Positions 1,318 to 46,294 of a stretch of 64,000 nt of DNA are shown piece by piece (position 1 is the stretch's first letter; every line of letters starts with the position of its first letter). Origin of the DNA: Verrucomicrobiota bacterium (GTDB lineage Bacteria; Verrucomicrobiota; Kiritimatiellia; SS1-B-03-39; UBA6053); contig JAFIGD010000008.1 of assembly GCA_020831625.1 (NCBI GenBank), forward strand, positions 1 through 64,000, in the 5' to 3' direction. A program made the position numbers and the translations under genes. The notes beneath the pieces are model-generated. The model did no database searches and was not told where the DNA came from. It saw nothing but the letters and a program-made list of their open reading frames with translations.

Positions 1318-1745
1318 CGGCAAAGAAAAAGTAGGTTCCATGCGCTGCTTGAAGCACTTCGAGAGTGGTAAATGGGGGAACGAGAACGGTGACGACAAGG
1401 GGGGACTTGGCGACAGGGTGTTTGCACCCGAGATTTTTGTGAGTGCGCCGGCCAATGTCCCGGTGGTTCGACTGACGTGCAGCGCGCCTGGCCGGAAATG
1501 ATTCCGGGGTGGATATCAAATGGATGACGGTCTTTGTCGCTTTCAGAATTGGTAAATATTGATTCCATTTGTGCTATTTACTTGCGTGAACCTTTTATCA
1601 TACCCTGTAAAATATTTTAGAATTGCACTTTTTGGAGAGCTGACGCGGCGAACCGGAATTGACAAGGAGACTGTTTGGTATGAAATATGGAATTCAGAAT
1701 TGTTCGGAACATTGGCCTGAGGATTGCCGGGCCTGCGACACGAAG
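1318..1745. other. Intergenic region with a degenerate GAGAACGG-type repeat half
   Basis: No convincing gene lies here. Bases 1377-1400 carry a degenerate copy of the half-element found complete at 10191-10286 and 18302-18377 (core GAACGAGAACGGTGACGA). An AT-rich stretch at about 1545-1615 is the likely promoter region of the next gene. It includes CTATTTACTTGCGTG, a weak relative of the TTTAC/GTAAA motif seen elsewhere. A TTG at 1659 and an ATG at 1680 are in frame with the next gene but precede its signal peptide by 29 and 22 codons. Confidence 0.5.
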
Positions 1746-4700
1746 ATGAAAATTCGTCGGGGTGTTCGACTGGCCGGGCTTATCATGTGCAGTCTCATCG
1801 CGGGATCGGCTTTGGCGCAGGACTGGTGGCGTTCTTCGTTGTACGGAAACGGCTGGACAGCACCCACTGAGGCGGTTTCCTTCTTGTCGAACAAGTTTCT
1901 GCAGGATTTCTCCTATGCGGGGTATCACCGGGGGGAGCAGCCGATTCCGCAGATAACAGGACCGGTTTTCCATGTGGCGGACTACGGCGCGGTTCCCAAT
2001 ACGCAGGCGGATTCCTCCGCCGCGATTCAGGCGGCGATCAACGCCGCCGGTCAGGCGGGAGGCGGGGTGGTGCAACTGGCCGCCGGCACCTACCGCGTTT
2101 CGCCCGGGTCGTCGAATGCCTCCCTGGTGATTTCACACAACGGCGTGGTGTTGCGGGGAGAGGGAACGAATCAGACGTTCCTGCTGAACACGCAAACCAG
2201 TATGAGAGGCAAGTCGGTGGTCCGGGTGCAGCCTCCTTCCAACGGGAACTGGTCCACCGTGGCTGGCAGCTCATCCAGGGCCATCACGCAACCATTGACC
2301 GGCCCGACCCGGATGATTCCGGTGGCGGATACCTCCCCGTTCTCTGAGGGCGACTGGGTCACGCTGCGCGCCGATGTGACAGAGGTCTTTATCGAGGATC
2401 TCAACATGTCGCACATCTGGGACACCCAGGAAAAACGAAACTCGCTGGGCGGGCCGTTTTTTTACCGGCAAATTCTGGCTGTAGACCCTGACGCGAACAC
2501 TTTGGAGATCGACGCGCCCATTCGCTTTATTCTCCTGCCCCGCGACAACGCCCGGGTCCACCGCACGGCGGAACTGCTCGAAGAAGTCGGTCTCGAGGAT
2601 TTTTCCATCGGCAACGTGCAACACCCCGGCAACTCGGGCTGGGGTGAAAACGATCACACCGACCCGAACAACAGTTCCTATGATACGCACGGCTCATTTC
2701 TTGTCCGTTTCATGGGGGTGCGGAACAGTTGGATGGATTCGGTGCGGTCCTACCGCGCTCCTTCAAACACCAAAGATCTGCACATGCTGTCGAACGGGGT
2801 TTTGCTCGTCCACTCCCGGGGGGTGACCCTGCGGAATGTGGAAATGCAGCGCCCGCAATTCGGCGGCGGCGGCGGCAACGGATATATGATCCGCATGAGT
2901 TCGGCAAACGAGTGCCTGGTGCTGAACTCCACGGTGCGCCGCAATCGGCACGGTTTCGTTTTCTCAGGCATGAGAACGTCCGGGAACGTGATTCGCGGCG
3001 GCATGGCGCAGATCACCGGCTGGCAATTTGAGGGCGGAAGAACCAATGGAACAGGAAACGATCACCATTCGCACTTAAGCCAGGCGAACCTCATTGACGG
3101 TGTGACCCTCGACCGGGATTACTTCACCGCGCACTGGCGGGGCCTGTGGGGCGGCACGACCGCACATGCACTGACCTCCACAGGGACGGTGTATTGGAAT
3201 CTCCACGGCCAGGCCTACTTGAGCGGCAGAACCTACATTGTTCAGTCGGAGCAGTTCGCCTACGGCTACATGATCGGCACCCGCGGACCCGCGCCGGGGA
3301 TGTTTCTCCCGTCTTCCCAGCCCGGTGTGACCGATCCGGCGGACCACGCCGAGGGGGAGGGGATGGGGGACACCCTTTGGCCTCCCTCTCTTTACGACCA
3401 TCAACTCCAGGGACGCCTGGAGGGCTATGATCCCGGGCCACTGTCCTTTTCCGTTCCACAACCCGAATCGGTGCGGTTTCCGGATCGGCATATTGAGCTG
3501 ACCGCGGTCATGGAGGATGCCCATATCGGCACGCCGACATTCGAATGGGAACAGCTTGAGGGCCCCTATCCGGCTCATTTCATTGATTCGGACAGTGTCG
3601 AAGCCACCGCGGTGGTGGATGTGCCCGGATTTTACCGTTTTCGTCTAACCGTAACCCGGGGAGAGTGGGTCGCCGAAAGGGAAGTCGGAGTTTGGGCGAA
3701 TGCTCACCTTTCCGAAGAGGCGGATGCACCGGCGGAGGCGGCGACCTTTGTTCGCGGCGGGACTTACGGCGACGATGCATATGGTGCCGCATCGTCTCTG
3801 CAGGTCAAAAACGACGGTCAAAACTTCAGCCGGCAGGCGTTTGTCCGTTTTCCGATACCGGAGTCCGACTATCCGGTTGCCCGGGCCACGCTTGAAATGA
3901 CCCCGGTTTCCGCAGGCATGGAGAACATGCTTCACGACGTGGTGCAGGTTGAGGCCGCCGGCTGGGAAGAGAGTACCCTGACCTGGAACACCCAGCCCGC
4001 AGCCGTCCATCCAACCCCTCTCGGCCAGGTGCCCGTGATCCCCGGCGAAACCTGGTCGCTGGATGTGACCGACGCGGTGAACAACGCAACCGGTGCTGTC
4101 GCCTTCCGCCTGTGGGCCGTCGAAAATTACGGGGCGCCCGGTTTCATGAGTTACGCCGGACGCACCCATTCGAATTCGCAATTCCGTCCGCGTCTTGTGG
4201 TGAATTTTGAGGAGGATATGCCGGATTTTGAGGAATGGATGGCTGCGGCGGCGGGGGTTCCTCCGGAGTTGCAGGGACCCCGAGACGATGCCAGCGGGGA
4301 CGGTCAACCGAACCTGCTTGCGTATCTGCGCGGCCATGCGCCGGACGTAGTCGATCACACACCCTTTCTCACGATAGCCAACCGTGACGGGGCGATGGTG
4401 GTGCAGTGGCACATGGACATGCGGATATCCTCCATTCCGTACCGGATTGAATGGACCCCCAGTTTACGTCCCGCCGATTGGAAACCCGTGACCGGGGCAT
4501 ACCGGTTCGCGGGGGATGACGAGGAGGGGAATGTGCGTGAATTGGAGACGGAGATATGGAATCCCGGTGTTCCGCAATCCTTTTTCCGCTTTTCAGCCTT
4601 TACCGAGACCGCCCTTAAGGACATCGTATGGGAAGAGGTGTTCCACGACCCGGGTACAGGGGACTGGAACGACAATTGGTTCTTGGATGGAAATCTGGCC

Positions 4701-5327
4701 ACGGTCACAAACAGCCCTTCAGGAATGGACTTCACTGCAGGGACGCAGGCATTTGATGATGCACACCATGCCGTACTTTGGACCAGACAAGACTTCAGCG
4801 GAGACCTCAAGATCGAATATGAGTACACCCGGCTCGATAACGAACTCCGCATGGTGAATATCCTTTTCATTCATGCCACCGGCAGCGGCGAACCCGGTTA
4901 TGAGAAAGACATCCACGAGTGGGCGGATAAACGCACGGTTCCGGCGATGCGTCTCTATTTCGAAAACATGAACGCCTACCACATCAGTTATGCCGCCTTT
5001 GACACGACGAACACGGTTCCGGGCAACGATTACATTCGGGCGCGGCGCTACGTCAGCGGACCCTTACAGGGAACGGAACTGGAGAATGAGTATGAAGAAA
5101 CCGGTTTTTTTGAGACAGGGGTTCCACATCAAATCACCATTGTGAAGCGTGGGCGCGACCTCTTTATGCATGTTCAAAACGACAGCAACGAGGCGGACTT
5201 TCATTTCGTCAACTCGAAGTTTCCGCCACTGACGGAAGGAAGGATCGGGCTTCGCCACATGTATACACGCGGGGCCAGGTACAAGGATTTCACAGTGAGT
5301 ATCCCGAAAACCAGTGATGGGAATTAA
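1746..5327 (+). CDS. Secreted beta-helix (pectate-lyase-like) protein with CBM96-like and DUF1961 domains
   Basis: The ATG at 1746 is preferred because it begins a good signal peptide (MKIRRGVRLAGL... cleaving after SALAQ). The mature protein of about 1168 residues is modular. Residues ~70-560 are a pectate-lyase-3-type beta-helix, opening with VADYGAVPNTQADSSAAIQA and closing with PPSLYDHQLQGRLEG. Residues ~655-823 are a DNRLRE/CBM96-like beta-sandwich (EESTLTWNTQP, LDVTDAV, FRPRLVVNF). A linker with a Verrucomicrobia-style segment (FEEWMAA...GQPNLLAYL) follows. Residues ~958-1193 form a DUF1961-type concanavalin-like domain (WNDNWFLDGN, HHAVLWTRQDFSG, GRIGLRHMYTRGARY). The likely role is extracellular polysaccharide cleavage or binding; lyase versus hydrolase cannot be told. 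The closest relatives in the window are 38272-40143 (helix) and 40159-40989 (DUF1961). Confidence 0.75.
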   Translation: MKIRRGVRLAGLIMCSLIAGSALAQDWWRSSLYGNGWTAPTEAVSFLSNKFLQDFSYAGYHRGEQPIPQITGPVFHVADYGAVPNTQADSSAAIQAAINAAGQAGGGVVQLAAGTYRVSPGSSNASLVISHNGVVLRGEGTNQTFLLNTQTSMRGKSVVRVQPPSNGNWSTVAGSSSRAITQPLTGPTRMIPVADTSPFSEGDWVTLRADVTEVFIEDLNMSHIWDTQEKRNSLGGPFFYRQILAVDPDANTLEIDAPIRFILLPRDNARVHRTAELLEEVGLEDFSIGNVQHPGNSGWGENDHTDPNNSSYDTHGSFLVRFMGVRNSWMDSVRSYRAPSNTKDLHMLSNGVLLVHSRGVTLRNVEMQRPQFGGGGGNGYMIRMSSANECLVLNSTVRRNRHGFVFSGMRTSGNVIRGGMAQITGWQFEGGRTNGTGNDHHSHLSQANLIDGVTLDRDYFTAHWRGLWGGTTAHALTSTGTVYWNLHGQAYLSGRTYIVQSEQFAYGYMIGTRGPAPGMFLPSSQPGVTDPADHAEGEGMGDTLWPPSLYDHQLQGRLEGYDPGPLSFSVPQPESVRFPDRHIELTAVMEDAHIGTPTFEWEQLEGPYPAHFIDSDSVEATAVVDVPGFYRFRLTVTRGEWVAEREVGVWANAHLSEEADAPAEAATFVRGGTYGDDAYGAASSLQVKNDGQNFSRQAFVRFPIPESDYPVARATLEMTPVSAGMENMLHDVVQVEAAGWEESTLTWNTQPAAVHPTPLGQVPVIPGETWSLDVTDAVNNATGAVAFRLWAVENYGAPGFMSYAGRTHSNSQFRPRLVVNFEEDMPDFEEWMAAAAGVPPELQGPRDDASGDGQPNLLAYLRGHAPDVVDHTPFLTIANRDGAMVVQWHMDMRISSIPYRIEWTPSLRPADWKPVTGAYRFAGDDEEGNVRELETEIWNPGVPQSFFRFSAFTETALKDIVWEEVFHDPGTGDWNDNWFLDGNLATVTNSPSGMDFTAGTQAFDDAHHAVLWTRQDFSGDLKIEYEYTRLDNELRMVNILFIHATGSGEPGYEKDIHEWADKRTVPAMRLYFENMNAYHISYAAFDTTNTVPGNDYIRARRYVSGPLQGTELENEYEETGFFETGVPHQITIVKRGRDLFMHVQNDSNEADFHFVNSKFPPLTEGRIGLRHMYTRGARYKDFTVSIPKTSDGN

Positions 5328-36782: not shown

Positions 36783-37658
36783 TCATTTGGATGGACCCAC
36801 ACCGTACATTTTTGCCAGCGCCTGCGTCCCGAGGTCCCCGTCGCCCTTGGCCGCCAACTCCCGATAGGATTTGAGGGAAAGGGCCAAGCCGGGCAAGTCC
36901 AGGTCCATTTTTTCGGCGGATTCGGAGGCAATGCCCATGTCTTTGATGAAGTGTTTCACATAAAATCCGGGATCGAAATCCCCCTCGATCATTCGCGGGG
37001 CCAAATTCGACAATGCCCAGCTTCCCGCCGCCCCCGCGCTGATGCTTTCCAACACCGTATGGGGATCCAAACCGGATTTTTTGGCGTAGGCCATGGCCTC
37101 GCAAACCCCGAGCATGGTCGAGGCAATGACGACCTGATTACACATCTTGCAGGACTGTCCGCTGCCGGCCGGACCCTGATAGACGATGTTCCGCCCCATG
37201 AGCTTGAAGACCGGCAGCACCTCGTCGTACACGTGCCGGTCGCCGCCCACCATGATGGACAATCCGGCTTCGCGCGCGCCTTTGTCGCCACCGGACACGG
37301 GGGCATCCAGAGCGGCGCCCCCTTTCTTCTTTGCCGCGTCCGCGATACGCCCGGCCAGTTCCGGACTGGAGGTGGTCATGTCGATGAGCACGGTTCCCTT
37401 CCGCAGGTTGGCGAGCAACCCCCCTTCCTCAAAATACACCTGCTCCACATCGGAGGGCATGCCGACGATGGTGATGACCAGGTCGCAGCGGGCAGCCAGC
37501 GAGCCCGGTGCATCCTCCCAAACTGCTCCGTCCGTCAGCAAATCCCGGGCTTTTTCTTTCGTGCGTGTATAGACGTGCAGACGGTGTCCAGCCTTTAAAA
37601 GATGGCCGGCCATGCTTTTGCCCATGACTCCTGTTCCAATAAATCCAATGGTTTTCAT
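36783..37658 (-). CDS. HIBADH-family NAD(P)-dependent reductase (2-hydroxy-3-oxopropionate reductase type)
   Basis: 291 residues, full length for the family. The N-terminal dinucleotide site is TIGFIGTGVMGKSMAGHLLK. The substrate block DAPVSGGDKGAREAGLSIMV and the catalytic Lys block GSGQSCKMCNQVVIASTMLG (K near 170) are conserved. DLGTQALAKMYG ends the helical domain. These enzymes reduce tartronate semialdehyde or oxidise beta-hydroxyacids such as 3-hydroxyisobutyrate. In this context a sugar-acid pathway is likely. It stands alone, with 16-bp direct repeats (CCCATTTTTTGACAGG) on either side at 36734 and 37838. Confidence 0.85.
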   Translation of the reverse strand: MKTIGFIGTGVMGKSMAGHLLKAGHRLHVYTRTKEKARDLLTDGAVWEDAPGSLAARCDLVITIVGMPSDVEQVYFEEGGLLANLRKGTVLIDMTTSSPELAGRIADAAKKKGGAALDAPVSGGDKGAREAGLSIMVGGDRHVYDEVLPVFKLMGRNIVYQGPAGSGQSCKMCNQVVIASTMLGVCEAMAYAKKSGLDPHTVLESISAGAAGSWALSNLAPRMIEGDFDPGFYVKHFIKDMGIASESAEKMDLDLPGLALSLKSYRELAAKGDGDLGTQALAKMYGVGPSK

Positions 37659-38271: not shown

Positions 38272-40143
38272 TTATTTCAAGACCGCCGCGGCCTGTTCGG
38301 CACCAAGGTGTTCAATGAGCTGCTGCTCGAAAAGGCTGTCGGGGGATACCGGACGGTCGGGGCTTTCAATGTGTCCGCTGCCCATGAGGGCGCAGCCGAA
38401 GTACTTCCCCTCCTTCGGCGTGCCCCAGTAGCCGGCGCGGGTGTTGGAATAATACAGCATGCCGGTCCCGGAGCCTTTTTCGTATTCTCCGCGGAAGCCG
38501 ATGGCGAAGTTGTTTTCGCCCTCGGTTTCGGGGTTCATGACCACAATCGAGCCGGCATCGCAGTTCCAGAACATCGTGTTGGCGGCGGCCCAGCCGTGAC
38601 CGGTGCCCGAATCGCCCCGGTTGAGGGCGCCCAGACTGCCGTCCCGGGTGATCACATTGTCGTACAGGGCCCCGGTGGACCAGCGGTGGTGCGGCTCGGA
38701 CAGACCGCCGCGCACGGCGGTGCTTCGGACAAAGGCAAACGGTCCGGTTTGCCGCGACCCCAGCGAGAAGCAGTGCCGGCTGTCCTCTGAATAGCAGTTG
38801 TAAAACAGGTGGAGGGTGCCGCCGCTGATGTTGAACGCATAGCGGAATCCGCCGCGCACGGGCCCCACGGGGGCCAGACTGTTGGTGTCGCGCACGGTGA
38901 TTTGCCGGGTGTGATGGCCGATTTGTACCGCCGCGAAGAAAACGTGTTTGACGGTGACCCCGCGCACCCAGCTGTCATAGGTTCCCCTGACGGCAATGCC
39001 ATTCCGGAAGTTTATGTAGTTTGTGCTCCTGTCATTTCCCTCCACCGTGGTGTCGTAATTGGAAACGATGCTCAGCGATTCCACCCCCGAATGGGTTGCC
39101 AGGCTGCTCACGTCCACTTTGTACACATCCCCGCTTCCATGTTCCTGATCGAAGGATTGCGGCAGAACCCCGTCCAGGGTGAGGGTGTTGCCTTCGATGG
39201 CTTCAATTTGACGAAGGTGCGCGAACCGAAACGCTCCCGGTCTCCAGGGAGTTTTGTTCGCGCCTTGTCTTCCCCCCCGGATATGGCGCAGACGCTGGCC
39301 CACGCCGAGGGTGTCGATCCAGGCCTGGTTGGGGGTTTTGCGGACTTGAACAAAGTCTCCGACCGCGAACTGCCCGGCGTCAGCCACGCTGAGGATCCGG
39401 CTGCCGGAGGGCAGATACGCGTCCGTAATCCGAACCGCGTCCGCTTCGCCCACGGGTTCAATTTTCCCTTCCGGGTCCCCCAGCAAAACGGCGTCGCCGC
39501 CGCCCTCGGCGCTTCGGAAAATCAGCACCGTGCCGTCATCCCCGTCGCCTTCGCCGCGGAGAACAACCCCGGAGCGCACGATCAGTCCGCCTTCGAGCGT
39601 ATAGGCGCCGCGCTTCAGGAGCACCGCGCCGCGAATGCCGTTATCGTCGGCGGGAAGAGCCGCGACCTCGTCGATGGCCGCCTGGATCAGGCCGCGGCTG
39701 TCGGGTCCCATGGGATAGGCCAGGTCGCCGATCCGGACCGCTTCGCCGGGAAGGGGACTCAGGGTGACGGCCACCGGGACATCTGGAATGGGCGTGCGGC
39801 TGTTTTTGTAGCCCGTGTATGACCAGTCCATCAGGGTGTCGCCTTTTTCGGTGTACGGGCGGTAGTGCAATCGGCCGTCTTCCCCCATGGAGATGAGCGG
39901 AGCGAATTCATTGGGCGTGAATGCGTGGCGCTCGGGTTCCCATTCCTCCCGATCCGGGGGCGGATGGACCCAGGACTCGGGCAGTTCCTCTACTTCAGCC
40001 TGTGCGGAAACAAATGGAAGCAAATAACTCATAGCGAGGATACAGAGGTTTTTTTTGAAAAGCGGAAAGACGGACGAATACGAATCTGAGGGGGATGAGG
40101 TTATGCTTGGCATCGTCTGATCTTGGGATTGGTTTTGTATCAT
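38272..40143 (-). CDS. Secreted right-handed beta-helix (pectate-lyase-like) protein
   Basis: 623 residues from the ATG at 40143, or 613 from 40113; both keep the signal peptide (FKKNLCILAMSYLLPFVSAQ). The mature start ESWVHPPPDREEWEPERH is followed by a beta-helix with SRGLIQAAIDEVAALPADDN, GGLIVRSGVVLRGEGDG and RNGIAVRGTYDSWVRGVTVK. It ends SPDSLFEQQLIEHLGAEQAA AVLK. It resembles the first ~560 residues of the protein at 1746, including the closing SL(Y/F)..QL motif, but has no CBM96 or DUF1961 module. The activity is probably cleavage of an acidic or galactan-type polysaccharide. Pieces of its head and tail recur at 47819 and 48828. Confidence 0.75.
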   Translation of the reverse strand: MIQNQSQDQTMPSITSSPSDSYSSVFPLFKKNLCILAMSYLLPFVSAQAEVEELPESWVHPPPDREEWEPERHAFTPNEFAPLISMGEDGRLHYRPYTEKGDTLMDWSYTGYKNSRTPIPDVPVAVTLSPLPGEAVRIGDLAYPMGPDSRGLIQAAIDEVAALPADDNGIRGAVLLKRGAYTLEGGLIVRSGVVLRGEGDGDDGTVLIFRSAEGGGDAVLLGDPEGKIEPVGEADAVRITDAYLPSGSRILSVADAGQFAVGDFVQVRKTPNQAWIDTLGVGQRLRHIRGGRQGANKTPWRPGAFRFAHLRQIEAIEGNTLTLDGVLPQSFDQEHGSGDVYKVDVSSLATHSGVESLSIVSNYDTTVEGNDRSTNYINFRNGIAVRGTYDSWVRGVTVKHVFFAAVQIGHHTRQITVRDTNSLAPVGPVRGGFRYAFNISGGTLHLFYNCYSEDSRHCFSLGSRQTGPFAFVRSTAVRGGLSEPHHRWSTGALYDNVITRDGSLGALNRGDSGTGHGWAAANTMFWNCDAGSIVVMNPETEGENNFAIGFRGEYEKGSGTGMLYYSNTRAGYWGTPKEGKYFGCALMGSGHIESPDRPVSPDSLFEQQLIEHLGAEQAAAVLK

Positions 40144-40158
40144 ATGAAATACATAAAA

Positions 40159-40989
40159 TCAGAGTTGGCGCACCTGAACGTTGCGGTAGCGGACACCGGT
40201 GTTGATCATGTGGCGGATACCGATGCGGCCTCGGGTGCTGGGGGCGGGGCGGCGGGGATCGAGGTCGTCGACGCGGTTGAAGGTCCGGTCCAAAACATTG
40301 TCGGGATTTCCGATTTCCTCAATGCGGATGCGCAGGGTCTCGGTGCGCAATTCGATATCGACCTTGTATGAGTTTTCCGGAGGAATGTAGTCGTACTCTG
40401 GATGCGTGATAAATTCGCCGATGAGGTTGTCGTTGAGTCGGTTGCCCTCCTCATCGACCCAGGGATAGCGGCGGAGTCGGATTTGCCAGCGGAAGGTGAC
40501 GCAGGTGAGGTTCATGCCATCGTGATACAGGTCCATCCTGGGGATGGTGCGGAGGTCGTTCCACTCGGTAATGTCCTCGGCATACGGACCCCAACCCACG
40601 CCTTGGGCGAGCATGTAGATCAGGAAGGTGAACCCCGGGGAGGTACGCGTCATTTCGAAACTCAGCCCGATTTCGCCTTCGAATTCCTGTTGAGTCCAGA
40701 GCACGGCGTGATAGGAATCAAACAGCTCCCTCATTTCCGGGGATTCGCGCCTGCGCTCGAACATGTTCTCTTCACCGTCGGCCTGGAAATGCAGTCCGTT
40801 TTCGTCTTGGGTGAGTATGGCCTTTTCGCCGTCCAAAAACCACTGGTCCCGCCAGTCGCCAGTCATGGAATCTTCGAAGAGGATGTCCCCGGGTTCGGGG
40901 GCGGACGGACGTTCGGCGGACGCGGTTTGGCAGGCGGTGTTGAGTAGGGTCATGAGGGTCAGAAGGGGGAGGAGGAGTGGAAATTTCAT
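40159..40989 (-). CDS. Secreted DUF1961-family protein (possible lipoprotein)
   Basis: 276 residues. The N terminus FPLLLPLLTLMTLLNTACQT is a signal sequence; the Cys may be lipidated, though the lipobox is atypical. The rest is a DUF1961 concanavalin-like beta-jelly-roll: WRDQWFLDGEKAILTQDENG, YHAVLWTQQEFEGEIGLSFE, RTIPRMDLYHDGMNLTCVTF and GRIGIRHMINTGVRYRNVQV. The family is found in polysaccharide-utilisation loci, and the fold suggests glycan binding or cleavage. The same domain is fused to the beta-helix protein at 1746. It is encoded just upstream of the helix gene at 38272 (15-base gap), so the two are probably partners. Confidence 0.8.
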   Translation of the reverse strand: MKFPLLLPLLTLMTLLNTACQTASAERPSAPEPGDILFEDSMTGDWRDQWFLDGEKAILTQDENGLHFQADGEENMFERRRESPEMRELFDSYHAVLWTQQEFEGEIGLSFEMTRTSPGFTFLIYMLAQGVGWGPYAEDITEWNDLRTIPRMDLYHDGMNLTCVTFRWQIRLRRYPWVDEEGNRLNDNLIGEFITHPEYDYIPPENSYKVDIELRTETLRIRIEEIGNPDNVLDRTFNRVDDLDPRRPAPSTRGRIGIRHMINTGVRYRNVQVRQL

Positions 40990-41488: not shown

Positions 41489-42505
41489 ATGAGCCCCCCC
41501 CCTCCGAAGTTCGCGCTGGCCATGGCGGACGACTATCCCTGGGAAGACATCCTTGTTAATCAGCTTGCCGGTCTCGATGTGGAGATCTGGCCGGACTGTC
41601 TTGACTGGGACGAGGCGGAACTGACCCGGCGTTTGCGCGGGGTGGATGCCGTGGTGACCGGCCGCAAGTCGCCGCGGATACCCGACGCGCTGATTCAGGA
41701 GCCGGGATGCCTCCGCGCGGTTCTGCACTGCCACGGCGGGGTCCGGCAACTGGTCCGCAAAGAGCACCTGCTCTCCGGCATCACCGTCACCAACTGGGGA
41801 ACCCAGATTGGCGGCGGAGTGGCCGAGGGTGCGCTGGCGCTGATGCTGGCCTGCCTGAAGCAACTGCGCAGTCTGCATGACTGGGCGGAAAGCGGGAAGG
41901 AGGAGGACCCCCGGATCTATCAGAATTATCGCTGTACCCTCTTCGGTGCCAAAATCGGCATCTACGGCTATGGTCCCATCGGCCGCAGGATGGCCATGCT
42001 CCTGGAACCCTTCTCTCCGCAGCTCGCAGTCTACGATCCGTACGCCGTCGAACTCCCCGCCGGTGTCAAACGCTGCGAAACCCTGGAGGAACTTTTTAAT
42101 CACAGCGACATGGTCACCCTGCATTGCGGGCTCAATGATGTCACCCGGAACTCGGTGACCGCCGATCTCCTGGACCGGCTTCCGCAGGGCGGCATCCTCG
42201 TCAACACCGCCCGCGGCGCGGTCGTGGATGAGGAGGCGCTGGCCGAACGGGTACACGCCGGCCGTCTGCTGGCAGGGGTGGATGTGGTGTGCGAGGAGGG
42301 ATCCGCGTGGGGGAAGACCCCGCTGGCAGGCACCCGGAATGCCATCCTCGGGGCACATGCTATCTCCAAAGGAAAGGGCGTCGAACCGGGCCTGTCCCGC
42401 CCACGTCAACTGGCGAAGTTCGTGGTGGAGAATCTGCGCGCCCTCGCTGAAGACGCTCCGCTTAAGAATGTGATTACCCCGGAAATGTACGATTTGAAAA
42501 CGTGA
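41489..42505 (+). CDS. D-isomer-specific 2-hydroxyacid dehydrogenase (first copy)
   Basis: 338 residues. The ATG at 41489 is chosen because GGAGG at 41479-41483 stands 5 bases upstream; a TTG at 41477 overlaps that site. The NAD-binding Rossmann block is KIGIYGYGPIGRRMAMLL. The catalytic Arg lies in ILVNTARGAVVDEEAL and the general-base His in ILGAHAISKG. The N-terminal catalytic half is shorter and less typical than in lactate or glycerate dehydrogenases. No signal peptide. First gene of a tight four-gene operon; it should oxidise or reduce a sugar-derived hydroxyacid. Substrate unknown. Confidence 0.85.
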   Translation: MSPPPPKFALAMADDYPWEDILVNQLAGLDVEIWPDCLDWDEAELTRRLRGVDAVVTGRKSPRIPDALIQEPGCLRAVLHCHGGVRQLVRKEHLLSGITVTNWGTQIGGGVAEGALALMLACLKQLRSLHDWAESGKEEDPRIYQNYRCTLFGAKIGIYGYGPIGRRMAMLLEPFSPQLAVYDPYAVELPAGVKRCETLEELFNHSDMVTLHCGLNDVTRNSVTADLLDRLPQGGILVNTARGAVVDEEALAERVHAGRLLAGVDVVCEEGSAWGKTPLAGTRNAILGAHAISKGKGVEPGLSRPRQLAKFVVENLRALAEDAPLKNVITPEMYDLKT

Positions 42506-42535
42506 ACCGAAAACAGATTAACCAAGGAGAATACC

Positions 42536-43207
42536 ATGAAAACCATCCTGAAAACACAAACTCTGCTCTTTGCCGCTTTGGCAATGACCCTGTTCCCCGC
42601 AGTCATCCGGGCGGAACCGGTCACCGTCAGTCCGCAGGAACTGGCCACCGAATGGTCTTTTTTCGGAGAGGGAACCCGCGCGGCGCAAAACCGGATGTTC
42701 TACATGGAGGAAAGTCCCGGCAGCAGCGGCGTGATGGTCTTCAGCCCCGAAGTCTTCGCGGGGGATGTCACCGTCCGCTATGAAATCATGCCGATGAATC
42801 CCGCCAGCATCTGCGTCGCCCTCCTCTTCGCCACCGATAAAGAAGGCCGCGACCTGCGGACGCTTCCCGCTGCGGGCCCTGACACGCCGGAGTTGACCCT
42901 CGGCGATCTCAAGACCTACTTCTTCGCCTTCCACAACGTGGCCCACAACCGGAAGCCTTTTCTGGCGCGGTTTCCAGGGGGCAACCTGATGGAAATTGAC
43001 CGAAACCTTGTCCGGTCGGGACAGTTTCATCAGATCGAAGTCGGCCGCAAAGGAAAGACCCTTTGGCTCGAAATTGACGGCGAGCGCATCATCGAAGTGG
43101 AAGAACCGGAGCCTTTCCCCTCCGGTCACATCGGCTTTCGCCTCCGCGGGATTTCCCAAATGCCCGCCGCCGCCCTGATCCGGAATGTGACCCTTCAGCA
43201 AAACTAA
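42536..43207 (+). CDS. Small secreted beta-sandwich protein (DUF1961-like or LamG-like)
   Basis: 223 residues with a clear signal peptide (LLFAALAMTLFPAVIRAEP) and an AAGGAGA site 9 bases before the ATG. The mature part is a concanavalin-like sandwich: LATEWSFFGEGTRAAQNRMF, GVMVFSPEVFAGDVTVRYEI, FHQIEVGRKGKTLWLEIDGE and GHIGFRLRG. That closing pattern is shared by DUF1961 and DUF1080-type glycan-associated proteins. It is encoded between two cytoplasmic dehydrogenases, 30 and 17 bases from its neighbours, so a secreted protein is embedded in a metabolic operon. Function unknown; glycan binding or hydrolysis is a guess. Confidence 0.7.
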   Translation: MKTILKTQTLLFAALAMTLFPAVIRAEPVTVSPQELATEWSFFGEGTRAAQNRMFYMEESPGSSGVMVFSPEVFAGDVTVRYEIMPMNPASICVALLFATDKEGRDLRTLPAAGPDTPELTLGDLKTYFFAFHNVAHNRKPFLARFPGGNLMEIDRNLVRSGQFHQIEVGRKGKTLWLEIDGERIIEVEEPEPFPSGHIGFRLRGISQMPAAALIRNVTLQQN

Positions 43208-43224
43208 GCGGAAACAGACATCGA

Positions 43225-44220
43225 ATGAGAGCCCTTTATTTACGTCATCCCGGCGGGTTCAATCCGTTGGCCCTTGAAAAAGTCCGTTCGGTCCCGGGGA
43301 TCGAACTCACGGAGGAAACAGCATGGGAGTCCATGGATCCTGAACAACTGGCCGATCGGATCCGGGCGTTTGACATCCTGCTGCTTTCGCGAGCCCCGGG
43401 GCTGTCCGACTCGCTTGCCGAAGAACCCGGCAATTTAAAGTGGATCTGCTATCTGCACGGCGGCATCAAAAACAAAATCGGACTGCCGGTCATCCGCTCT
43501 TCGATTCAGGTGACCAACTGGGGTGATCATCCGGCGGTCGAACTGGCGGAGGGCTCCCTGGTCCTGCTCATGTGCTGTTTGAAGGATGTCCACCACCGGA
43601 TCCTGCATGTGCGGCGCAACGGCAGTCGCCAGGAGCGCATCCGCAGCGTCGGCGGCACCACAAACGGACTCCGGGTCGGCGTGTACGGCTACGGCTACGC
43701 CGGCAAGGCCTTTGTGCGGCTGCTGCAGCCGCTGGGCACCCAGATCCGTGTGTACGACCCCTACGCCGCCGAGCTTCCGGAGGGTTGCGCCCGGGCGGAA
43801 TCGCTCGAAGCCTTGTTTGACGGAATTCAGGCGGTGGTGGTGCACGCGGCGCTGACGCCGGAGACGGAAAAGTCAATTACCGCCGAGCTGCTCGCGAAAC
43901 TTCCCGACCACGGCATCGTGGTCAACACCGCCCGCGGCGCCATCATCGACCAGGACGCGCTCTTTGCCGAACTCAAGGCGGGCCGCCTGCGCGCCGGACT
44001 GGATGTGCTGTCCCCCGACCATCTGCCGGAGGACCATGAAGCCCGAACCTGGGACAACCTGATCTACGGCGGCCACTGCTTCGGTCAAATGGAGCCCTGG
44101 CCCGGGGAGGACCCGCTCACCCGCCGGGATGTCAACGTGCTGGAAAACCTCCGCGCTTTTATGGAGAATCGGCCCTTAAAAGATCTGATTGACGAACGCA
44201 AGTATGCCCTGATGACCTGA
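43225..44220 (+). CDS. D-isomer-specific 2-hydroxyacid dehydrogenase (second copy)
   Basis: 331 residues, paralogous to the first copy along its length. RVGVYGYGYAGKAFVRLLQ is the NAD site, IVVNTARGAIIDQDALF holds the catalytic Arg, and LIYGGHCFGQ the His. Shared lines such as LKWICYLHGGIKNK versus LRAVLHCHGGVRQL, VTNWGDHPAVELAEGSLVLL, and the ending LRAFMENRPLKDLIDERKYA show a common ancestor distinct from standard dehydrogenases. The retained pair with diverged N termini suggests two successive steps, or two epimers, of one pathway. Confidence 0.85.
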   Translation: MRALYLRHPGGFNPLALEKVRSVPGIELTEETAWESMDPEQLADRIRAFDILLLSRAPGLSDSLAEEPGNLKWICYLHGGIKNKIGLPVIRSSIQVTNWGDHPAVELAEGSLVLLMCCLKDVHHRILHVRRNGSRQERIRSVGGTTNGLRVGVYGYGYAGKAFVRLLQPLGTQIRVYDPYAAELPEGCARAESLEALFDGIQAVVVHAALTPETEKSITAELLAKLPDHGIVVNTARGAIIDQDALFAELKAGRLRAGLDVLSPDHLPEDHEARTWDNLIYGGHCFGQMEPWPGEDPLTRRDVNVLENLRAFMENRPLKDLIDERKYALMT

Positions 44221-44240
44221 AAACGAATGAGAACCGAACT

Positions 44241-45014
44241 ATGAATAAAATTCCCCCTGTATATTTAGGCACCGTGCTGCCGGAGTTGAACCGATGGAAA
44301 CGCGGCAGCGGTGAAATCTCTTTTAAAATGTCCGACTGGGCGCAGCGGATCACCGATGACGGTTTTGATGGCGTGGAACTCTGGCAGTATCACGCCACAG
44401 ACGTGGACCCCGAAGAAGTGGATCGCATCCGCACCGGCCCCTGTCCCGTGAAAATCTTCAACGCCTACTGTTCCTGCGATCCGGAGGACGCCGAAGAACG
44501 CCGGACGATTTCCGAACTGGCTGTTTCTCTCGGCGCGGAAGGCATGAAATACAATTCCGGCAAGGAGTTCGACCGTCACGACCTCTATGTGGAGGCGATC
44601 AAAGACTGGCGGGCGATGTTTCCCGAGGATTTCCGTCTGATGTGCGAGTGCCACCGCGGCAGCACCATGGCGGACACCCAACTGGCCAACGAAACCCTGG
44701 ACCGACTGGGACGCGAAAACCATGGCATGATTCTTCACGGCATGGACAACGACGACGCCACGGTCCGGGAGCGCTTCGCCGCCTATGGCGACCGCATCCA
44801 GCACATCCACGCCAACCTCTCCCAAAAGGGCCTGATGTCAGAGCAGGCGGTCTGCGAACGGCTGGAGTTCCTCACAGCGCAGGGCTTCAACGGCACCTAC
44901 ACCATCGAATTCACCGAAGGCATGCGGGACGGACTGACCCAGGAGCAACTCTACGAAAACGCCGTCCGCGATTTCAAACGCCTCAAAACCTGCATGGAAA
45001 AGGTTTTCCGATAG
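44241..45014 (+). CDS. Sugar phosphate isomerase/epimerase-family TIM barrel
   Basis: 257 residues of the AP-endonuclease-2-like superfamily used by xylose isomerase-type and hydroxypyruvate isomerase-type enzymes. RITDDGFDGVELWQYHATDV, LMCECHRGSTMADTQLANET, MILHGMDNDDATV, IQHIHANLSQKG and GTYTIEFTEGM carry the expected Glu/His/Asp metal ligands. Soluble. It ends the four-gene operon 20 bases after the second dehydrogenase. The final codons (gtt ttc cga tag) form one arm of a stem-loop, so the stop codon lies in the hairpin loop. Confidence 0.8.
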   Translation: MNKIPPVYLGTVLPELNRWKRGSGEISFKMSDWAQRITDDGFDGVELWQYHATDVDPEEVDRIRTGPCPVKIFNAYCSCDPEDAEERRTISELAVSLGAEGMKYNSGKEFDRHDLYVEAIKDWRAMFPEDFRLMCECHRGSTMADTQLANETLDRLGRENHGMILHGMDNDDATVRERFAAYGDRIQHIHANLSQKGLMSEQAVCERLEFLTAQGFNGTYTIEFTEGMRDGLTQEQLYENAVRDFKRLKTCMEKVFR

Positions 45015-45024
45015 TCGGAAAACC
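45002..45024 (+). terminator. Stem-loop overlapping the isomerase stop codon
   Basis: GGTTTTCCGA (45002-45011) and TCGGAAAACC (45015-45024) pair perfectly around TAG, the stop codon itself. The repeat core TTTTCCGA/TCGGAAAA recurs in the next stem at 45027-45059. Confidence 0.6.
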
Positions 45025-45026
45025 GC

Positions 45027-45059
45027 CGGGGAATTTTTCCGAGCCTCGGAAAAACCCCG
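45027..45059 (+). terminator. Second stem-loop of the TTTTCCGA type
   Basis: CGGGGAATTTTTCCGAG pairs with CTCGGAAAAACCCCG around a short loop, with a two-base bulge. A weaker third unit (TCTGACCGTCGGA) follows at about 45070. Likely a terminator cluster or a dispersed dyad repeat. Confidence 0.5.
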
Positions 45060-45096
45060 ACGTCATTTTCTGACCGTCGGAACGCTTTAAGCAGTT

Positions 45097-45247
45097 GGGC
45101 GCATCTCGCAATTGGTGAAAAGCATGCGGCTTAAAAAAAGGAGGTCAGGCTTTCCAGCCTGACGCGGCGGAGGGGCACCGCGACAGTCTGGAAAGGCTGT
45201 CCTCCATGAATAGCGATCTGACCTTTCACCAATTGTGAGATGCGCCC
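45097..45247. mobile_element. MITE-like element (151 bp)
   Basis: 24-bp terminal inverted repeats at 45097-45120 (starting GGGCGCATCTCGCAATTGG) and 45224-45247 match at 23 of 24 positions. They are flanked by near-identical 9-mers TAAGCAGTT (45088-45096) and TAAGCCGTT (45248-45256), as expected of a target duplication. The interior has no gene but contains further dyads (GTCAGGCT/AGCCTGAC; GGAGG.CAG / CTG.CCTCC). It lies directly before the DUF1016 gene, whose 5' end appears missing. Confidence 0.75.
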
Positions 45248-45313
45248 TAAGCCGTTTGTGTTTTCTTCTTTCGCTTGCATCCCGGTTGCCCGGTGTGTAG
45301 TGTCCCATGACTG

Positions 45314-46294
45314 GTGGGATGTGGTTTTCCCGCCACAGACCTGAACCGACCATGTGGGACTCTACACAACTTTCCAATCTACTGGGACATCGGCCGGCAT
45401 ATACTCGAACGCCAGGAACGCGAGGGCTGGGGCGCCAAAGTGATTGACCGCCTGGCCCACGACCTTTCCGCCGCCTTCCCGGAGATGAGGGGGCTTTCGG
45501 CGCGGAATCTCAAATACATGCGCAATTTTGCCGAGGCCTGGCCGGATAATGAAATAGTGCAACGGGTCGTTGCACAAATTCCATGGCGAAGCCAAATCGC
45601 TTTGCTGGAGAAACTTAAGGAATCCACCATCCGGCTCTGGTATGCGAAACAGGTGATTGAAAACGGCTGGAGCCGGGATGTGCTGGTCATGCAGATCGAA
45701 TCCGGCCTGCACCGCCGGGTGGGTGGGACGGTGAACAACTTTGCTCTCACCCTGCCGCCCGCCGACTCCGATCTGGCGGAGCAAGTTTTCAAAGACCCGT
45801 ATCTCTTCGACTTCCTCGGGACCGACGCGCCCCGCCGCGAACGGGAAGTGGAGCAGGCCCTGATGGATCACCTCAAGGACTTCCTGCTGGAACTGGGTGC
45901 GGGTTTCGCTTTCGTGGGACGCCAGAAACGTCTGGAGGTGGAGGGCGAGGAGTACCGGATCGACCTGCTGTTTTACCATCTGCGCCTGCGGTGCTACGTG
46001 GTGGTGGAACTCAAAGCCGTGCCCTTTGATCCCGCCTTTGTTGGACAACTCAATCTCTATTTGTCTGCCGTGGATGACCTCTTGCGCCACCCCGACGACA
46101 AACCCAGCATCGGCCTGCTGCTTTGTAAAAGCCGAAAAAAATTGGTGGTAGAATACGCCCTGCGCGGACTCGACACCCCCATGGGCGTGGCCGAATGGAA
46201 GACCCGGCTCACCGAGGAATTGCCGGACGAACTCAAAGGCAGCCTCCCCAGCATCGAGGAGATCGAGGCGGAATTTTCGGGGGAGGTGGGGTGA
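45314..46294 (+). CDS. DUF1016/YhcG-family PD-(D/E)XK nuclease, probably N-terminally truncated
   Basis: The frame opens at a GTG (45314), but recognisable family sequence starts only at IYWDIGRHILERQEREGWGA, about residue 25. Normal YhcG proteins carry ~40-50 more residues before this point. The rest is complete: LSARNLKYMRNFAEAWPDNE, QIPWRSQIALLEKLKE, then the PDDEXK nuclease half with EYRIDLLFYHLRLRCYVVVE (D and ExK of the active site: VVELKAV) and FVGQLNLYLSAVDDLLRHP. The family is linked to defence and restriction-type functions. The MITE at 45097-45247 may have replaced the 5' end. Function uncertain. Confidence 0.75.
   Translation: MGCGFPATDLNRPCGTLHNFPIYWDIGRHILERQEREGWGAKVIDRLAHDLSAAFPEMRGLSARNLKYMRNFAEAWPDNEIVQRVVAQIPWRSQIALLEKLKESTIRLWYAKQVIENGWSRDVLVMQIESGLHRRVGGTVNNFALTLPPADSDLAEQVFKDPYLFDFLGTDAPRREREVEQALMDHLKDFLLELGAGFAFVGRQKRLEVEGEEYRIDLLFYHLRLRCYVVVELKAVPFDPAFVGQLNLYLSAVDDLLRHPDDKPSIGLLLCKSRKKLVVEYALRGLDTPMGVAEWKTRLTEELPDELKGSLPSIEEIEAEFSGEVG

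Follow-up and report, generated by a model that had tools for sequence, protein, structure and literature searches.

A conserved gene pair of a D-2-hydroxyacid dehydrogenase and a TIM-barrel protein as a putative sugar-acid catabolic unit in Kiritimatiellia

In a 64,000-nucleotide stretch of a Verrucomicrobiota genome (the window; assembly GCA_020831625.1, contig JAFIGD010000008.1, positions 1 to 64,000), a run of four same-strand genes ends in a D-2-hydroxyacid dehydrogenase gene (P0003) and a TIM-barrel gene (P0004) that recur together in other genomes. The P0003-P0004 pair is the conserved core of this run, and P0001 and P0002 are additions seen in this genome only. It is fairly probable, in our view, that a polysaccharide-derived sugar acid is broken down by P0003 and P0004 as a unit of two enzymes, to which P0001 was added as a recruited dehydrogenase and P0002 as an exported glycan binder. 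The original prediction had placed four genes here with gaps of 17-30 bases; all four open reading frames were indeed found on the + strand, separated, in gene order, by 30, 17 and 20 bases. A GGAGG sequence lies just 5' of the P0001 ATG at 41489, and a strong hairpin, whose minimum free energy (MFE) was equaled by 0 of 200 shuffles, is possibly the end of the P0001-P0004 transcript. The features are as follows:

41489..42505, + strand: P0001, D-2-hydroxyacid dehydrogenase family protein, 338 aa; a lone lineage outside the conserved pair
42536..43207, + strand: P0002, apparently secreted YesU/DUF1961-like protein with a predicted lectin fold, 223 aa
43225..44220, + strand: P0003, D-2-hydroxyacid dehydrogenase, 331 aa; one half of the conserved pair
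44241..45014, + strand: P0004, predicted metal-type xylose isomerase-like TIM barrel, 257 aa; the other half of the conserved pair
45003..45085, strand not given: strong hairpin directly 3' of P0004, MFE -42.7 kcal/mol, z -5.9
40159..40989, - strand: P0006, DUF1961-like protein, divergent context gene; lipobox-like signal, read by eye
38272..40143, - strand: P0005, large secreted protein, divergent context gene; resembles the lyase-like half of the window ORF 1659-5327

The P0004 TIM family was found in 19 of 345 genomes of the class, and the P0003 dehydrogenase subfamily, counted by sorting the class matches on the dehydrogenase tree, in 18. Both families occurred together in 15 genomes (Fisher p 4.7e-20), and the two genes lay side by side in 12 of these double carriers. 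In eleven of the adjacent pairs the two genes share a strand, separated by -7 to 42 bases, and one pair is divergent at 207 bases; in the three other double carriers (G151, G098 and G578) the TIM and dehydrogenase genes are on different contigs. Four TIM genomes had no subfamily dehydrogenase and three dehydrogenase genomes had no TIM match, among them G059, which keeps a truncated TIM gene adjoining its dehydrogenase. Outside the 345-genome class search, the two genes also lie next to each other in G119, G158 and L034; L034 is the sole locus from a one-protein scan of wider genome contigs in which other phyla were barely sampled. The 15 same-strand loci (G081 included) comprised 7 with the dehydrogenase-TIM order and 8 with the TIM-dehydrogenase order.

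The two genes also diverged in parallel. A mirror tree of 18 pairs gave an r of 0.73 (0 of 5000 permutations); it left out G578, though that genome carries both genes, and its pairing was hand-chosen for the unlinked genes of G151, G098 and the second set of the window genome (G000). This signal may partly reflect species descent. Both genes of the window pair are nearest to those of G593, G594 and L034, while in the unlinked second set of the same genome, with the dehydrogenase gene on C15 and the TIM gene on C91, both are nearest to the G015 pair.

The four-gene set itself was found in no other genome, and the four-gene operon was rejected as a conserved unit because only P0003-P0004 recurs. 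The outcome named beforehand as refuting, a neighborhood conserved nowhere else, thus holds for the set of four but not for the P0003-P0004 pair. The proposal that the four genes serve one pathway was likewise not upheld, as P0002 had only three relatives, all weak, among the other 344 class genomes, and P0001 had no close class relative outside the P0003-type subfamily. Only the operon in the window connects P0001 and P0002 with the pair.

P0001 and P0003 both contain the NAD domain 2-Hacid_dh_C (120.6 and 118.3 bits, respectively, against a Pfam cut-off of 25.1). For the N-terminal catalytic domain 2-Hacid_dh, P0003 scored 18.5 against a cut-off of 24.6 and none was reported by Pfam for P0001; thus, the earlier description of two dehydrogenases with an atypical N-terminal half holds. 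That they are recent tandem duplicates was rejected, given that their identity is 33-39% and that P0001 is on a long branch outside the pair clade that holds P0003 (the tree contains duplicate rows for P0001, G119 and G391). No relative closer than the P0003-type proteins was found for P0001 in the 345 class genomes. Neither protein reached the cut-off of any NCBI-named 2-hydroxyacid dehydrogenase family (PGDH, GhrA, GhrB, VanH and others), the best NCBIfam scores being 104.6 for P0001 and 80.9 for P0003 against 454. These scores do not show either protein to be an ordinary glyoxylate/hydroxypyruvate reductase, the outcome that had been named as contrary to the original prediction. The catalytic triad of D-2-hydroxyacid dehydrogenases (PF02826/PF00389) consists of Arg, Glu and His. 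R237 and H284 of P0003 were kept in 21 of 21 aligned proteins, and P0003 has an Asp at the position of the Glu of human GRHPR, which P0001 retains. The Glu-to-Asp change could weaken catalysis in P0003.

As anticipated, the last gene of the run encodes a probable isomerase or epimerase: P0004 was modeled as a TIM barrel (pLDDT 81) with sugar epimerases as its best fold matches. Sugar 3-/4-epimerases and AsbF were among these matches, YcjR (3-keto-glucoside 4-epimerase) was the top Foldseek match, and comparison with D-tagatose 3-epimerase gave Z scores of up to 20.0 (244 residues, rmsd 3.5); many epimerases were tied, however, and the ranks differ little. P0004 itself had no match up to E 0.1 in Pfam, including PF01261 (xylose isomerase-like TIM barrel), or in NCBIfam, whereas PF01261 matched 11 of the 23 members of its family (best E 1.4e-8). 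Residues E136, H138, H166, H190 and E223 of P0004 are invariant in 23 of 23 family members, and the model suggests a TIM barrel with a putative acidic/His metal site. For P0003 and P0004, the sequences themselves show the families, conserved residues, linkage and parallel divergence.

The small secreted beta-sandwich protein that had been foreseen was recovered in P0002, with a signal-peptide-like stretch at its N-terminus (read by eye) and a beta-sandwich model (pLDDT 67) for which two DUF1961-like proteins of the window were also used. Its top structural match was YesU (1oq1; E 5e-9, Z 16.9, 172 residues, rmsd 3.5), and the predicted galectin-like fold likens it to YesU/DUF1961 proteins, from which it differs in that it appears exported and scores below the Pfam DUF1961 cut-off (18.0 bits against 25; E 0.0019). 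A profile comparison using the DUF1961-type profile gave 97%. That profile, which also served to search the pair loci, is partly circular because L071, one of its members, was recruited by a P0002 search; the Pfam DUF1961 score is independent of it. Two other assignments, to the 3-keto-disaccharide hydrolases (PF06439, E 0.043) and to DUF6250 (E 0.0029), were rejected, both being below cut-off while the fold search ranks YesU first. YesU binds fucosylated glycans (PMC6120924), and by analogy P0002 looks like a surface glycan binder, which supports that part of the original prediction. The DUF1961-type profile had no strong match in the pair loci outside the window, and a P0002-type protein adjoins the pair in this genome only. 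The divergent neighbor P0006 scored 223 bits against the DUF1961-type profile, of which it is itself one row. P0005 shares 24% identity over 494 aligned columns with 1899-3269 (tblastn) and has a weak, below-cut-off match to a hyaluronan lyase family (NCBIfam, E 0.0008); its assignment to a solved lyase was rejected, as a PDB sequence search gave no useful match.

The neighbors of the pair, taken from home-made ORF picks of which some may be wrong, are often glycan-degrading, with lyases and glycosidases in several genomes; several loci (e.g., L025, L055, L061 and L032) have neighbors without an obvious glycan role, and no constant neighbor that would name a substrate was found among the pair loci. 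In G081, the TIM gene is 8 bases from a different 2-hydroxyacid dehydrogenase gene (21% identity to P0003), and the two lie between two PL8 lyases, directly before them, and a GH95 enzyme. In G363, there is a 4-base overlap between the TIM gene and a Gfo/Idh/MocA gene; Gfo/Idh genes are also near the TIM gene in L031, L063 and L064, and a heparinase II/III-like gene adjoins that of L058. These repeated glycan-degrading neighbors and an apparently undescribed dehydrogenase-isomerase unit sustain part of the original idea of a new sugar-acid route, which was not supported as a pathway of four genes; no finding singles out an anhydrosugar as its source. No paper describing the pair was recognized among open-licence PubMed Central papers searched with chosen words.

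We propose that P0003 and P0004 probably catalyze successive steps in the conversion of a sugar acid. The compound would be released from a polysaccharide, P0003 would interconvert its 2-hydroxy and 2-keto forms at C2 with NAD(H), and P0004, with a divalent metal, would catalyze a carbonyl shift, a carbon inversion or a water elimination on the same compound via an enediolate. The direction, like the consecutive chemistry, the cofactor and the metal, is what we infer for the pair. P0001 would be an additional dehydrogenase of distant kinship that was taken into this transcript, and exported P0002 would bind, on the cell surface, the glycan from which the sugar acid derives.

Several other explanations were weighed. 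The pair could belong to an ordinary hydroxypyruvate/tartronate-semialdehyde node, in which P0003 as hydroxypyruvate reductase and P0004 as hydroxypyruvate isomerase lead to D-glycerate. The Asp loop of P0003 aligns with the loop of human glyoxylate/hydroxypyruvate reductase, and a tartronate semialdehyde reductase-like gene is present at 36783-37658 (269.7 bits, under the 340.75 cut-off); the patchy distribution of the TIM family, the missing Pfam and NCBIfam matches of P0004 and the linkage to lyases and glycosidases nevertheless make this node unlikely. We give still less credit to a purely regulatory or historical linkage, with P0003 and P0004 serving different steps within a wide polysaccharide programme. 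The mixed neighbors and the three double carriers with unlinked genes are compatible with it, but 12 of the 15 double carriers have the genes adjacent, both gene orders occur, and two genomes pair the TIM gene with an alternative dehydrogenase, all of which renders it very improbable.

It is also quite unlikely that the pair replaces KduI-KduD or DhuD-DhuI as isomerase and reductase for 4-deoxy-5-keto-uronate after polysaccharide lyases. The KduI family was found in 0 of 19 TIM genomes, compared to 22 of 107 in the class sample (p 0.043, with overlapping samples, kinship uncorrected, and a family, PF04962, that covers IolB as well as KduI). A 2-keto-3-deoxy aldolase family is present in 17 of 19 TIM genomes, and the PL8 lyases of G081 and the heparinase-like gene of L058 fit such a role. 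KduD acts on the other ketone, while a 2-hydroxyacid dehydrogenase would be expected to act at C2. The unsaturated-uronate route was demoted as the main reading because GH88/GH105 hydrolases occur in only 5 of the 19 TIM genomes; unsaturated uronates are a possible substrate but not a favored one. Action of P0004 on a 3-keto sugar or glycoside, like LgdB1 or YcjR, with P0003 or P0001 as the sugar dehydrogenase, seems similarly doubtful. It would agree with the top Foldseek match and the Gfo/Idh genes near some TIM genes, but Pfam detected no Gfo/Idh/MocA dehydrogenase among the four window genes, the close fold ranks discriminate little, and the constant partner belongs to the 2-hydroxyacid dehydrogenases, which act next to a carboxylate.

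If the steps of the preferred unit are consecutive, the P0003-P0004 pair would mark the presence of a sugar-acid route in genomes of polysaccharide degraders of the phylum; the pair is also a compact test case for the combination of one isomerase family with different dehydrogenase families. Many catabolic steps in these degraders cannot be named from sequence. A more speculative proposal, which we regard as improbable, is that the TIM barrel and the D-2-hydroxyacid dehydrogenase add a third isomerase-reductase couple, non-homologous to the known ones, for keto-acid sugars from uronic-acid polysaccharides, with dehydrogenase families swapped between lineages, that replaces the KduI/DhuI routes; if true, it would explain polysaccharide-rich bacteria without KduI.

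Among known systems, the 3-dehydroshikimate dehydratases AsbF/QuiC include the solved structure that the TIM family matches best by profile (AsbF, E 2e-6), with a common E-x-H-P-x-T strand motif and downstream H-x-H; the identity in the structural alignment is 18%, however, and no aromatic or petrobactin context was seen around the pair. In the LtnD-OtnI pathway for four-carbon acid sugars, a 2-hydroxyacid is oxidized and a TIM-barrel isomerase then acts on the keto acid. The order proposed here would be similar, but LtnD is of the 3-hydroxyisobutyrate dehydrogenase family, and no acid-sugar kinase gene was recognized beside the pair. The YcjS/YcjR-type 3-keto-sugar systems combine a Gfo/Idh/MocA NAD dehydrogenase with a PF01261-fold TIM barrel. 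An NAD dehydrogenase and a PF01261-fold TIM barrel are also combined in the LgdA-LgdB1 levoglucosan system, where the dehydrogenase is of the Gfo/Idh/MocA type (PMC10066097) and not a 2-hydroxyacid dehydrogenase as in the window. KduI-KduD and DhuD-DhuI (PMC12838403) resemble the P0003-P0004 pair in having an adjacent isomerase and NAD(H) oxidoreductase, in either order and with non-homologous replacements, for a sugar acid from polysaccharides; they consist of KduI/RpiB-type and short-chain enzymes, in contrast to the TIM barrel and D-2-hydroxyacid dehydrogenase of the window.

The operon consists of four genes in the window:

41489-42505, + strand, D-2-hydroxyacid dehydrogenase P0001
42536-43207, + strand, secreted protein P0002
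43225-44220, + strand, D-2-hydroxyacid dehydrogenase P0003
44241-45014, + strand, TIM barrel protein P0004

The intergenic distances are 30, 17 and 20 bases, respectively, and both dehydrogenases have an atypical N-terminal domain, which confirms the operon described in the original prediction. A strong hairpin is found 3' of P0004 (MFE -42.7 kcal/mol, z -5.9) and was equalled in 0 of 200 shuffles. We noticed that a palindromic repeat of ~150 bases with long inverted ends is located at 45090-45255. This repeat, possibly a MITE or REP-type element, has 12 matches in the genome, including partial copies on contigs C13, C6, C30, C2 and C43. A DUF1016/YhcG PD-(D/E)XK nuclease gene (45314-46294) is flanked by the operon and a sulfatase gene.

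The conserved core of the operon is the pair of P0003 and P0004. P0004 relatives were identified in 19 of the 345 class genomes searched, and P0001 as the query over the same class (E 1e-25) identified 27 genomes, 18 of which were placed by the tree in the P0003 subfamily and 9 outside it. Both families were found together in 15 genomes, compared to ~1 expected (Fisher p 4.7e-20; 345 class genomes), and were side by side in 12 of these 15. The adjacent genes were on the same strand in 11 cases, with gaps of -7 to 42 bases, and divergent and 207 bases apart in the remaining one; in the other three double carriers (G151, G098 and G578) they were on separate contigs. Four TIM genomes (G081, G165, G267 and G444) had no subfamily dehydrogenase, and three dehydrogenase genomes (G059, G242 and G459) had no TIM match. 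Further analyses revealed that in G059 a TIM remnant, with the N- and C-terminal stretches kept and the middle apparently lost, adjoins the dehydrogenase (L027:10485-10838). Beyond the class search, the pair is also adjacent in G119, G158 and locus L034, whose contig is titled Planctomycetota. The gene order within the pair varies, which is evidence against a single frozen ancestral order.

The distance matrices of the dehydrogenases and TIM proteins were correlated (r 0.73; 18 pairs; 0 of 5000 permutations as high), to which species descent will contribute. More telling is the comparison of the two dehydrogenase-TIM sets carried by the window's own genome. The nearest relatives of both genes of the linked P0003-P0004 set are those of G593, G594 and L034, while both genes of the unlinked second set (dehydrogenase on contig C15, TIM on C91) are nearest the linked pair of the genus-mate G015. 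Thus, each gene has kept the lineage of its partner, and P0003 and P0004 were probably acquired together, as one unit. By eye, the genome's second dehydrogenase and its G578 relative are near biotin-dependent decarboxylase-like genes (L023 and L123). A GNAT-like acetyltransferase gene adjoins the pair or dehydrogenase in two families (Pfam in L030; by eye in L029).

The NAD domain of D-2-hydroxyacid dehydrogenases scored well above the Pfam cut-off in P0001 and P0003. The N-terminal halves had no good Pfam match to the catalytic domain typical of this position, and both proteins were far from every NCBIfam cut-off. R237 and H284 are conserved in 21 of 21 dehydrogenase proteins. P0003 carries Asp at the position of the third catalytic residue, which in human GRHPR is a Glu. 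This Glu is retained in P0001, which is on a long branch outside the clade of pair dehydrogenases and has no close relative within the 345 class genomes.

For the P0004 model (pLDDT 81, built from a two-sequence alignment), Foldseek ranked YcjR at the top, followed by D-psicose and D-tagatose 3-epimerases and UlaE, and placed AsbF 19th. VIA-align superposed 244 residues on D-tagatose 3-epimerase (Z 20.0, 3.5 A), and many rows were tied. P0004 residues E136, H138, H166, H190 and E223, invariant in 23 of 23 relatives, would occupy the metal-binding place of this fold. AsbF, a 3-dehydroshikimate dehydratase, was the sole solved-structure match of the P0004 family profile at E 0.01 (E 2.3e-6), and the two have an E-x-H-P-x-T motif in common. 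Given the epimerase fold matches and the AsbF profile match, isomerase, epimerase and dehydratase are all candidate activities for P0004. In G081, the gene that ends 8 bases before the TIM gene encodes a 2-hydroxyacid dehydrogenase from a different subfamily, with 21% identity to P0003; two PL8 polysaccharide lyases precede these genes and a GH95 enzyme follows them. In G363, the TIM gene and a Gfo/Idh/MocA oxidoreductase gene overlap by 4 bases. That various NAD-type dehydrogenases adjoin one TIM family suggests that a dehydrogenation step is coupled to the TIM step.

The neighbours of related pairs or TIM genes include the following:

L057 and L059, GH2
L028, GH78
L056, PL8 and GH95
L062, GH115
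L058, heparinase II/III-like
L063, sulfatase

Other loci, such as L025 and L055, had no relevant neighbours. GH95, GH78, GH10 and sulfatase genes are present in the window. A role of the pair in glycan catabolism fits, although no one polysaccharide recurs. Substitution of the pair for KduI-KduD on lyase products is consistent with the occurrence of KduI in 0 of 19 TIM genomes, compared to 22 of the 107 genomes in a class sample that overlaps with this set (p 0.043, uncorrected), and of a 2-keto-3-deoxy aldolase in 17 of 19. GH88/GH105, which free the substrate of the KduI-KduD route, were, however, found in just 5 of 19, and this substitution is a possible but not a favoured reading.

The Pfam match of P0002 to DUF1961 is weak (18 bits against a cut-off of 25), and a profile comparison that is partly circular gave a clearer one (97%). 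The fold search with the P0002 model (pLDDT 67) placed YesU (1oq1) at the top (E 5e-9, Z 16.9), ahead of CBM66 and galectins. Fucosylated glycans are reported as YesU ligands (PMC6120924), and P0002 is more likely a binder than a hydrolase. Given that P0002 had only three weak relatives in the class and that a DUF1961-type profile gave one marginal match (E 0.0025, L030) over the pair loci outside the window, P0002 is a local addition. A DUF1961 domain is also part of this window ORF:

1659-5327, 1222-aa ORF with a pectate-lyase-like domain, CBM96 and DUF1961

The divergently oriented neighbours of the operon, P0005 and the DUF1961-like P0006 (38272-40989), resemble two parts of this ORF, like a split version of it.

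The closest logic to that of the pair is found in the isomerase-reductase clusters kduI-kduD and dhuD-dhuI, which are likewise two-gene units whose components are replaceable by non-homologous ones (PMC12838403), but have no protein family in common with the pair. LgdA-LgdB1 (PMC10066097) also resembles the pair, but its dehydrogenase belongs to Gfo/Idh/MocA.
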